The position numbers and the translations under genes are program-made. From Chthoniobacteraceae bacterium (GTDB lineage: Bacteria; Verrucomicrobiota; Verrucomicrobiia; Chthoniobacterales; Chthoniobacteraceae), in assembly GCA_947471505.1 (NCBI GenBank), contig CANIWM010000020.1, positions 1 through 64,000 on the forward strand: a stretch of DNA of 64,000 nt, read 5' to 3'. This document shows positions 44,222-47,100 of this stretch, piece by piece. Below the pieces are notes generated by a model, which worked only from the letters and a program-made list of their open reading frames with translations, made no database searches and was not told the DNA's origin. Each line of letters begins with the position of its first letter. Positions within the stretch are counted from its first letter, which is position 1.

Positions 44222-44255
44222 AAAAGGCGGAGCGGCTTTCTCAGCTCGCTCCGCC
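44222..44255 (-). terminator. terminator of the four-gene secreted-protein operon
   Basis: GGCGGAGC (44226-44233) pairs with GCTCCGCC (44248-44255) and is followed on the minus strand by TTTTGGCTTTAAAA. It lies 198 bp after the stop at 44453 but only 43 bp after the stop of the shifted frame at 44298, supporting the longer reading of the last gene. Confidence 0.75.
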
Positions 44256-44297
44256 CCAACCCTACAGTTTAAAGTCTGCTAGAGGAATCGAGGTGGC

Positions 44298-44505
44298 CTA
44301 GTTCTTAGGCTCGGCTTTATCCTCGTCGGTTTTCCCCTTCTTTTTTCCTTTTCCTTTTGTTGGTTCGCCTGCCGGTTCTGCCGGTTGAGGAGTTGGAGGC
44401 GCTTCCTTTCGGATGTCCGGACTTTTTCGAACTGCTTTATCGACTTCGGGTTTCAGGACTGGCGGCTTTTTTCCACCCGTTTTGGCTCCACTAGTGGCAA
44501 GGGGG
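44298..44505 (-). pseudogene. shifted-frame C-terminal continuation of the DUF6600 gene
   Basis: In the frame one base away from the DUF6600 ORF, codons stay open past its stop to a TAG at 44298-44300. They encode TGGKKPPVLKPEVDKAVRKS, then APPTPQPAEPAGEPTKGKGK and a GKTDEDKAEPKN end. The Lys/Pro/Glu composition equals that of the main protein. A shift at the homopolymers AAAAA and CCCCC near 44502-44512 would join the two. It may be a sequencing error, a recent mutation, or a frameshifting site. Confidence 0.55.
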
Positions 44506-45955
44506 CTTTTTCGCGTTTCGTATCGATGTTCTTCTCGGGTTCACGCGGAGGTGTGTCTCTCCCCGGAAGGACTTTTTCGCGCTGCTTGGTCTCTGTGCGC
44601 ACCGGGGTATCATTGTTTTTACTCTTCTTGGAAGGCACGACGAGCGGCGTCTTTTCTTTCTCGATGGCGGGCGCTGCTGGCCTCGCTTCTTCCGGAGTAA
44701 CTGGTCGCGCAACCACCGCTGGCTTGGGCTTCGGCGGAGCGTCAGCCTTCGGTTCGGCCTTGGGTTCCTCTTTCTTCGGTGCTTTGCCTTTCGGCATCTT
44801 TGCATCGGGGACTGGCTTCTCATCCTTCGGAGTTGCTTCTTTCGCAACCTCTGGAGCTTTCGGAACGGGCGTCGCAATGGCCTTGGGTTCCTCTTTCTTT
44901 GGAGTCTTGCCTTTAGGCATTTTTCCATCAGGGACGGGGTTTTCATCCTTCGCAGGTGCTTCTTTCGCGACTACTGGAGCTTTGGGCACCGGCGTTGCAA
45001 CCGGTTTGGTGTCTTCTTTTACGGGCGCGGCGGTAGGCTCTTGCTTGGGCGGCGCTGGTTCCTCTTTGATCTTCGTCCGCAGCTTCGCGACTTCCTCGGT
45101 TGTCCCGGCGTCTTTCCAGCCGTGATTTACTTCTGCTTTTTCCACTTTCGCCACGACTTTGCGTGGAGCTTTTGCCGGCGTGGTGTCGAATGCGGGTGCT
45201 GCGATTCTGACGGAGTCGCCCTTTACGACGGTGCGTAGCTGGTCGGCTTTCATCGTACGCGGGTCGCCTTCGAAATCCTCTCGCCGGTCGAGCTTGAGCT
45301 TCCGGATGGGCACTGCGCTCTCGCGGGAGATCACGTCGTACTGCGGGCCGTTGTTGATCACCGTGTTGTTTACGTAGGTGATGTTCGTGATGTTTGTCGT
45401 CCGATTGATAATCGTGATGTTTTGCTGCGGCGCGATGATGACTCGGCTCAGTCGGCGCGATCCGAAGTCACGCACGTCCACGAAGCTGTAGTTCGTCGGC
45501 CCGATGTCGAAGTCCGCATCTACCCTTACGTTAAAGCCGATGGAGCGCGTGAACGTCGCCTCCGGTGGGAGCGGGGCCCAGCCGACGTGCCGCTCGCTTC
45601 TTCTCCACGAAACCCACGCGGGCCCCCATTCGGTCCCTGGGACCCAGACCCAGCCGATGCGGTCCACGCGTGCCCAGCGACCGTAGTGATAGACGGCCCA
45701 AGAGTAGGGTTCGTCGGAATCCCACGTCCACCCGGCATCGGTATAAAGCCAGCGGCCATCGCGATAGGGCCGCCAGTCGCGGTCCACGTCGCGCGGTTGC
45801 CAGCAGTAGCCGTAATCGCCGACTTCACGCCAGTCGCCGTGCGCCTCAAGATTGTCGTGGAAGAAATCCACGGAGAGTTGCACTGCGCCTTGTGCGGAAG
45901 GAATGGCGGAACTCGCGAAGAGCGTCGCCGCGAGGATGGAGTAGAATTGTTTCAT
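44453..45955 (-). CDS. secreted DUF6600 protein with Lys/Pro/Glu repeats
   Basis: This 500-residue protein (as read) has a signal peptide (residues 1-23, SAQGA) and a Trp-rich DUF6600 domain at about 25-125 (YGYCWQP, WRPYRDGRW, AVYHYGRWARVDRIGWVWVPG, GPAWVSWRR). An Asn/Thr region follows (QNITIINRTTNITNITYVNN), then two copies of a 40-residue repeat with KPVATPVPKAPVVAKEAPAK and GKMPKGKTPKKEEPKA, and a Lys/Arg/Glu tail. The start at 45955 begins the signal peptide and is 16 bp after the previous stop. The native C-terminus probably lies in another frame, ending at 44298. Likely an envelope structural protein; function unknown. Confidence 0.75.
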   Translation of the reverse strand: MKQFYSILAATLFASSAIPSAQGAVQLSVDFFHDNLEAHGDWREVGDYGYCWQPRDVDRDWRPYRDGRWLYTDAGWTWDSDEPYSWAVYHYGRWARVDRIGWVWVPGTEWGPAWVSWRRSERHVGWAPLPPEATFTRSIGFNVRVDADFDIGPTNYSFVDVRDFGSRRLSRVIIAPQQNITIINRTTNITNITYVNNTVINNGPQYDVISRESAVPIRKLKLDRREDFEGDPRTMKADQLRTVVKGDSVRIAAPAFDTTPAKAPRKVVAKVEKAEVNHGWKDAGTTEEVAKLRTKIKEEPAPPKQEPTAAPVKEDTKPVATPVPKAPVVAKEAPAKDENPVPDGKMPKGKTPKKEEPKAIATPVPKAPEVAKEATPKDEKPVPDAKMPKGKAPKKEEPKAEPKADAPPKPKPAVVARPVTPEEARPAAPAIEKEKTPLVVPSKKSKNNDTPVRTETKQREKVLPGRDTPPREPEKNIDTKREKAPLPLVEPKRVEKSRQS

Positions 45956-45971
45956 TGGAATCCAGACGCAC

Positions 45972-46157
45972 TCAGTAGGAGTGCGTCGTTTCTGTGTGTG
46001 TGGTAACGCCGGGGTGCCGGGTTGTTGTCGTTTCTTCGGTCGTCGTCGTGCGTGTCGTCGCAGGCGCGGGGGCGATGTAGGTTTCGTCCGTCGTCTCACA
46101 TCCGGAGAAGGATATTACGGCGGTGACTGCGAGGCAGGATAGGATGATTGTTTTCAT
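45972..46157 (-). CDS. small Thr-rich lipoprotein
   Basis: This 61-residue protein has a lipobox ISFSGC with Cys at residue 20. The mature part is Thr-rich (TTRTTTTEETTTT, VTTHTETTHSY). It lies 22 bp after the preceding lipoprotein gene and 16 bp before the DUF6600 gene. No function is recognisable. The poly-Thr run resembles the start of the mature part of the protein at 46471. Confidence 0.7.
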   Translation of the reverse strand: MKTIILSCLAVTAVISFSGCETTDETYIAPAPATTRTTTTEETTTTRHPGVTTHTETTHSY

Positions 46158-46179
46158 AGGTATGATGGTTGTTTTGTGG

Positions 46180-46437
46180 CTATTTCGCGGGTGGCGGCGG
46201 AACGGGCGCGGGCGGGTTGATGATAGTGGTGTTGTTTTCCACTTTCTTGGTCTCCTTCGCCGGTGGGTTGATGATCGTAGTGTTGTTCTCCACTTTCTTT
46301 TCCTCCTTTGCAGGCGGGGCGATGATTGTTGTGTTCTTCTCGACGACCTTTTCGGGTGCAGGCGCCGTCGTGCGCAGATCGCATGCGGCGAGGAAAAATA
46401 CCGAGCTGAGTGTGATGAGGATTGGTTTCATATTCAT
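46180..46437 (-). CDS. small lipoprotein with three NTTIINPPA-type repeats
   Basis: This 85-residue protein has a lipobox FFLAAC with Cys near residue 19. The mature part contains three repeats of about 17 residues: EKNTTIIAPPAKEEKK, ENNTTIINPPAKETKK and ENNTTIINPPAP, ending in Pro/Lys. The Asn/Thr/Ile core also occurs in the DUF6600 protein of the same operon (QNITIIN, NNTVINN). An ATG two codons downstream (46431) is an alternative start. Possibly a self-assembling or partner-binding strand; unproven. Confidence 0.7.
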   Translation of the reverse strand: MNMKPILITLSSVFFLAACDLRTTAPAPEKVVEKNTTIIAPPAKEEKKVENNTTIINPPAKETKKVENNTTIINPPAPVPPPPAK

Positions 46438-46470
46438 GATGAGTTTTCGGTGCTTCGTTCGGTCGCGGCG

Positions 46471-47100
46471 CTATTTGACGACTGCGGTGCGCACGATGAC
46501 TTTGGTGGCGATCATCTTGTCGCCGTCTTTCGTGTAATGAATGGTCACGGGCAGTCCGGATTTCACCGTCTCGACGGAGACTGGCTCACCCGCCTCATTC
46601 ACGTAGGTGGTTTTCTTCGTGTAGGTGTAGCGAACCGGCGATGTCGCTGTTTCCGAGCGGACGACGATTGTGTCTCCGCCGAATTCGCTAATCGTTCCGG
46701 CGTTCGTGGTCGTCGTGGTGGTCGTGATCTTCTTCGTCTCGACCTCGGGCACGTTGGCCGGGGCTGCGTTTCTCACGATGACTTTTGTCGCGACCATCCG
46801 GTCGCCGTCCTTTGTGTAGTAAACGGTTACGGGAAGTCCCGACTTCACGGTCTGGATCGAAACAGCCTTGCCCGATTCGTCCACGTAAGTGGTCGTCTTG
46901 CTGTAGCTGTAACGAATGGGCGTGGGCGACGTCTCGGAACGAACGATAATCGTATCGGCTCCGAATTCGCTGATGGTTCCCGCGGTCGTCGTCGTGGTCG
47001 TTTCCTTCACGACGGTCTCCGCAAGAGCGATGTTGTTGGTGGTGGTGAACGCAAGGCCGAGAATGGCTGCGCTGGCGAGTGTGAGAATGTTGTTTTTCAT
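46471..47100 (-). CDS. secreted protein with a tandemly duplicated domain
   Basis: This 209-residue protein has a signal peptide (residues 1-27, NNIALA-ET) and two almost identical domains of about 90 residues (roughly 28-117 and 123-209). Each begins with a Thr run and has AGTISEFGADTIIVRSE, RYSYSKTTTYVDESG and GLPVTVYYTKDGDRMVATKV. The fold looks like a small beta barrel similar to the DUF5666-like protein at 11369. First gene of the four-gene operon. The start at 47100 begins the signal peptide. Confidence 0.7.
   Translation of the reverse strand: MKNNILTLASAAILGLAFTTTNNIALAETVVKETTTTTTAGTISEFGADTIIVRSETSPTPIRYSYSKTTTYVDESGKAVSIQTVKSGLPVTVYYTKDGDRMVATKVIVRNAAPANVPEVETKKITTTTTTTNAGTISEFGGDTIVVRSETATSPVRYTYTKKTTYVNEAGEPVSVETVKSGLPVTIHYTKDGDKMIATKVIVRTAVVK

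Follow-up and report, generated by a model that had tools for sequence, protein, structure and literature searches.

A secreted protein with two predicted OB-fold-like barrels is encoded beside small threonine-tailed lipoproteins in Verrucomicrobiota and Desulfobacterota

The genes described here appear, from comparison of their sequences and surroundings, to form a real and conserved envelope module, the core of which is a secreted protein (g1) plus small Thr-tailed lipoproteins (g2 and g3), and in which a DUF6600 protein (g4) is an occasional partner. They were found in a window of 64,000 bp (the whole stretch of DNA that was analysed, G000:C20:1-64000, from a genome, G000, of 6.07 Mb).

A first-pass annotation of the window described four consecutive genes with gaps of 16-33 bp that end at one terminator, and this layout was confirmed, on the minus strand and with one strong hairpin, as follows: g1 (46471..47100, minus strand) encodes a 209 aa secreted protein with a signal peptide and two OB-fold-like barrels, each with a Thr run ahead of it; g2 (46180..46437, minus strand) encodes 85 aa with a lipobox and a 17-aa repeat of the ENNTTIINPPA type; g3 (45972..46157, minus strand) encodes 61 aa with a lipobox and a TTTTEETTTT run; and g4 (44453..45955, minus strand) encodes a 500 aa DUF6600 protein with a Trp-rich domain, an Asn/Thr strand region and a Lys/Pro/Ala-rich C-terminal half. 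The three intergenic gaps are 33, 22 and 16 bp. A terminator-like hairpin (44225..44270, minus strand), with a T-rich stretch after it, lies 3' of g4 and has a calculated folding energy of -26.8 kcal/mol (z of -4.64; 0 of 200 shuffles were equally good). One strand, short gaps and a single terminator mark g1 to g4 as an operon. A prepilin peptidase gene (Peptidase_A24, 2.7e-15) lies on the same strand 168 bp upstream of g1, a gene for an FAD-dependent halogenase-like protein adjoins the operon downstream, and a sigma-70 scan found no site. The complete set of four genes was found only in the window; partial sets are g1-g2-g3, in the same order as in the window, at four Verrucomicrobiota loci (L127, L131, L136 and L156), g1-g3-g4 in genome G039 and g3-g4 in genome G032.

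The duplicated domain that had been proposed for g1 is real (two 238-nt copies that are 74% identical), as is its signal peptide. A structure model built from 55 sequences gives two 5-strand barrels (aa 36-109 and 130-203) in which most residues have pLDDT >90, while the Thr linkers are of low confidence. A sequence search against solved chains gave no match. Pfam DUF5666 (PF18914), a small beta domain similar to that of g1, is matched at E <=0.01 by 6 of the 55 g1 homologs (best 8.1e-6), but the window g1 itself gave no match to it up to E 1. Elsewhere (L006, 1465-1620) a 51-aa open reading frame resembles only the signal peptide end of g1 and is possibly a remnant.

The products of g2 and g3 are predicted, as had been claimed, to be small lipoproteins by the pattern of their lipoboxes (FLAAC in g2, FSGC in g3); the LPAM_1 profile gives g2 13.1 bits, which is under its cut-off of 20. 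The g2 gene contains about 2.6 tandem 51-nt units, and its homologs at L127 and L156 additionally carry a KKTTTTTTE tail. With known small outer-membrane lipoproteins (the NCBIfam PG1828 family and Lpp/OprI) g2 and g3 share a tiny size, a lipobox and an extended polar tail, but g3 scores only 21.3 against the PG1828 cut-off of 50, the lipoprotein of L149 scores 15.4 against the Ala-zipper family cut-off of 43, and there is no fixed C-terminal Lys like that of Lpp/OprI-type proteins. Covalent anchoring through such a Lys, in the manner of Braun lipoprotein, was rejected as a rule, since 24 of 58 g1 proteins and 12 of 36 lipoproteins end in Lys. A literature search found no paper on threonine-rich or polythreonine lipoproteins of such a system.

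The assignment of g4 to DUF6600 (PF20245) is secure (127.3 bits over residues 34-132, with a cut-off of 27). To our knowledge this family has no known function, and a literature search found no paper naming it; a structure prediction, made from a 3-row alignment, gave a pLDDT of 30.9 and was unusable. The first-pass annotation had g4 running to 44298 in one frame, which is incorrect: its own frame ends at 44453, and the stop at 44298 belongs to a different frame. The two frames join at GAAAAAAG, with an A6 run near 44468-44474, and a -1 shift is required to pass from g4 into the 56 aa continuation (44298..44468, minus strand). This tail resembles the C-termini of in-frame orthologs, with a score of 86 against that in G032 (2 of 500 shuffles as good) and 76 against that in G039 (6 of 500). 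As these orthologs end in matching sequence with no shift, the likely cause at the A6 run is an indel, an error in assembly or slippage; this falls short of proof because the tail has a low third-position GC (0.44, versus 0.67 in g4), which counts against its being coding. A programmed -1 frameshift is not supported, since the G032 and G039 orthologs reach the equivalent tail in one frame. The window genome also encodes a second DUF6600 protein (L003, 6978-9014, in G000:C4) of 678 aa, which has a NITIIN-type motif and no adjacent g1, g2 or g3.

How far does this gene company extend to relatives? Among 40 genomes sampled from the family, DUF6600 is present in all 40 (at 66 places), g1 in 15, g3 in 9 and g2 in 5. 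Only in G000, G039 and G032 does a DUF6600 gene in this sample adjoin g1 and/or a clear g3; further cases are a degenerate g3-like open reading frame in G002 and locus L133, which is outside the family set. Most DUF6600 genes lie outside operons of the g1/lipoprotein kind. Neighbouring g1 and g3 genes occur in G039, G028, G026, G023 and G022, with another pair in G017:C58, and g1 and g2 are neighbours in G017:C26. When named genomes were searched with an alignment built from eight g1 proteins, 59 loci emerged, most of them from Verrucomicrobiota and Desulfobacterota; one of the 59 (L177, with no full open reading frame) was dropped before counting. The remaining 58 represent fewer genomes, as several genomes give two loci each, and the locus sets overlap (L124 is contig G039:C159, and others of the 59 are likely also among the family genomes). 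Occurrence of g1 is patchy (12 of 387 in the phylum sample). In a g1 tree that leaves out 10 loci because their domain pattern failed, Verrucomicrobiota and the rest fall on opposite sides of one branch, with weak support from few columns.

The linkage of g1 to a lipoprotein was measured with a strict rule (a same-strand lipoprotein 36-110 aa long in which some stretch of 7 residues holds at least 5 Thr, <=600 bp from g1), whose Thr-run part was set after examples had been seen. Such a lipoprotein lies beside g1 in 32 of the 58 loci, and the remaining 894,656 strand-bases of those loci hold none. The pair is also present at L149, in Desulfoprunum benzoelyticum. The lipoprotein is downstream of g1 in 17 of 33 Verrucomicrobiota loci and never upstream, and upstream in 15 of 24 other loci (mostly Desulfobacterota) and never downstream. 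Because gene order is reversed between the two phyla, chance linkage is unlikely. By the strict rule 26 of the 58 loci have no lipoprotein; looser rules add one at L128, L138 and L147. When the strict rule was applied to 22 loci from the phylum search, here over the whole locus and not by distance, 3 passed, all of them among the 6 strongest (0 of the other 16), and a loose rule finds an adjacent small lipoprotein in 5 of those 6.

The Thr runs reported in g1 and g3 are real. In 45 of 58 g1 proteins a Thr run lies within the last 25 residues, and at 18 of the 32 linked loci a [KRQE]TTTT-type motif is present in both partners. An origin by DNA slippage or as microsatellites was rejected, as the codons are mixed both in the window runs and across the 58 loci (of 538 pairs of neighbouring Thr codons, 174 are identical, with 186.7 expected); the Thr runs are therefore maintained at the protein level. 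The expectation that the genes and their motifs would be conserved together in relatives held for g1 with its small lipoproteins, also where gene order is reversed in a second phylum, but not for DUF6600, which rarely joins them. A shared envelope function is supported by this, because both the linkage and the Thr-run tails are retained across orthologs.

The genes near these loci bear on when the module might be made. Among 114 neighbour open reading frames picked by hand from 328 listed, domain matches include BON (6), OmpA (5) and DUF1003 (3), and single loci have CsbD (L127), DUF892 and a sub-cut-off match to DUF883 (G032), DUF4142 (L133) and BON (L138). We take these to be stress families. 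BON lies on the same contig as g3-g4 in G032 and is uncommon among the window genome's relatives (13 matches in 19 genomes and none in G000; this yardstick is for Verrucomicrobiota only). The immediate neighbours of the window operon are not stress genes. In G023 (L085, 2476-3486) the position of DUF6600 after g1-g3 is taken by a gene whose Lys/Pro-rich product has a peptidoglycan-binding domain, and in G039 an LpxR gene (L124, 8084-9112) lies downstream of the g1-g3-g4 operon, after a DUF883-like open reading frame.

A 16-bp motif, TAGGGTTWCACCCCAT (also given as TAGGGTT(A/T)CACCCCAT), was first spotted by eye in g1 upstream sequences and then tested. It lies 51-59 nt before the g1 start in L127, L156, L188 and G023. 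Three CsbD genes, two DUF2934 genes (one in G000), an LpxR gene (G000) and others have it 51-53 nt upstream; some sites are farther off, at 79, 95, 106 and 176 nt. Sites are at L127:4527 and 5901, L156:2011 and 3409, L161:6198, L188:1084 and in L216, and in G000 at C2:74493, C14:32770 and C151:1473. With a leading G the motif occurs 10 times in the 40 genomes, versus 0 for a reversed control. No copy precedes the window operon. Blind counts of 6-mers and dyads in the sequences ahead of g1 were little above shuffles in Verrucomicrobiota, and in the other group of loci T-rich words and purine words resembling ribosome sites were raised. Nothing was found in the literature on the motif sequence, or on CsbD in Verrucomicrobia, for such a system. 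We consider the motif a candidate promoter or operator in Verrucomicrobiota. Because of the neighbour genes, and because the motif is common to CsbD, DUF2934 and LpxR genes, an envelope-stress module is suggested, with stress control of this kind in the relatives only.

What might the products do together? We envisage g1 as a secreted OB-fold protein, periplasmic or at the surface, co-produced with one or two tiny lipoproteins. These would be sorted to the outer membrane, where their extended Thr-rich tails, which resemble the g1 tail, would most likely hold or position g1 by binding it. The gene set would be made under envelope or osmotic stress, and DUF6600, an independently widespread envelope protein, would have been recruited to the operon in a few lineages. 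Our judgement of this explanation as a whole, that of an old envelope module, is evenly balanced. The Thr tails could instead be simple spacers, disordered or glycosylated, whose task is to keep anchored proteins soluble, with no contact between the gene products, so that the linkage reflects co-regulation only. The low confidence of the Thr linkers in the g1 model is in keeping with spacers, as is the fact that the partners have composition and not a fixed sequence in common; so tight a linkage with reversed order exceeds that of most co-regulated pairs, yet is compatible with spacers, and we regard this account as possible but rather doubtful. At the other extreme, the poly-Thr tails might be a recognition code that zips g1 and the lipoproteins into a stress-induced outer-membrane scaffold in Verrucomicrobiota and Desulfobacterota, which we think unlikely.

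Two further proposals give the operon a more specific product. A surface or amyloid-like structure in which all four proteins co-assemble through shared Asn/Thr strand motifs would fit the single tight operon of the window and the Thr runs in g1 and g3. This proposal drew also on an echo between the g2 repeat and g4, which is weak: g2 against N-terminal g4, a part picked after the motif had been seen, beats 997 of 1000 shuffles (3 score as well or better), but with the whole mature g4 the score is no better than chance (equalled or exceeded by 227 of 400 shuffles). Operons that lack DUF6600 (L127, L156) retain the g2 motif, and DUF6600 proteins that occur without g2 (G018, G020, the G000 paralog and L133) retain the NITIIN-type motif. 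Because each half persists without the other, the echo is no evidence of co-assembly, and with DUF6600 so rarely linked we find such a structure decidedly improbable. For g1 itself the solved structures nearest the model are the Cu/Ag chaperones CusF and SilF (TM-score by target 0.74; for 2qcp, Z of 10.6 and rmsd of 2.0 over 72 residues), followed by other OB folds, which might make g1 a periplasmic metal chaperone of their type with the lipoproteins as docking partners. The likeness is that of a small exported OB fold, in g1 from the predicted model only, at 12% identity, and OB folds of many functions reach Z near 8 against the same model. The metal ligands of CusF are His, Met and Trp. The g1 alignment of 55 rows has no His, Cys or Trp in its invariant or nearly invariant columns, where the only Met is the start, so that g1 differs from CusF and SilF in lacking conserved metal ligands as well as in having two barrels and Thr tails; a metal chaperone is thus very improbable.

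The positioning of g1 by lipoproteins, which we prefer, makes three or four hypothetical genes into a module that can be tested, one with set partners and a predicted fold, and the relatives supply a candidate promoter motif common to CsbD, DUF2934, BON and LpxR genes. If the tails do bind each other, this would be a new and simple means of outer-membrane attachment for a secreted protein. The side-by-side occurrence of g1 and a lipoprotein gene in two phyla points to a shared, so far unnamed envelope job, probably under stress.
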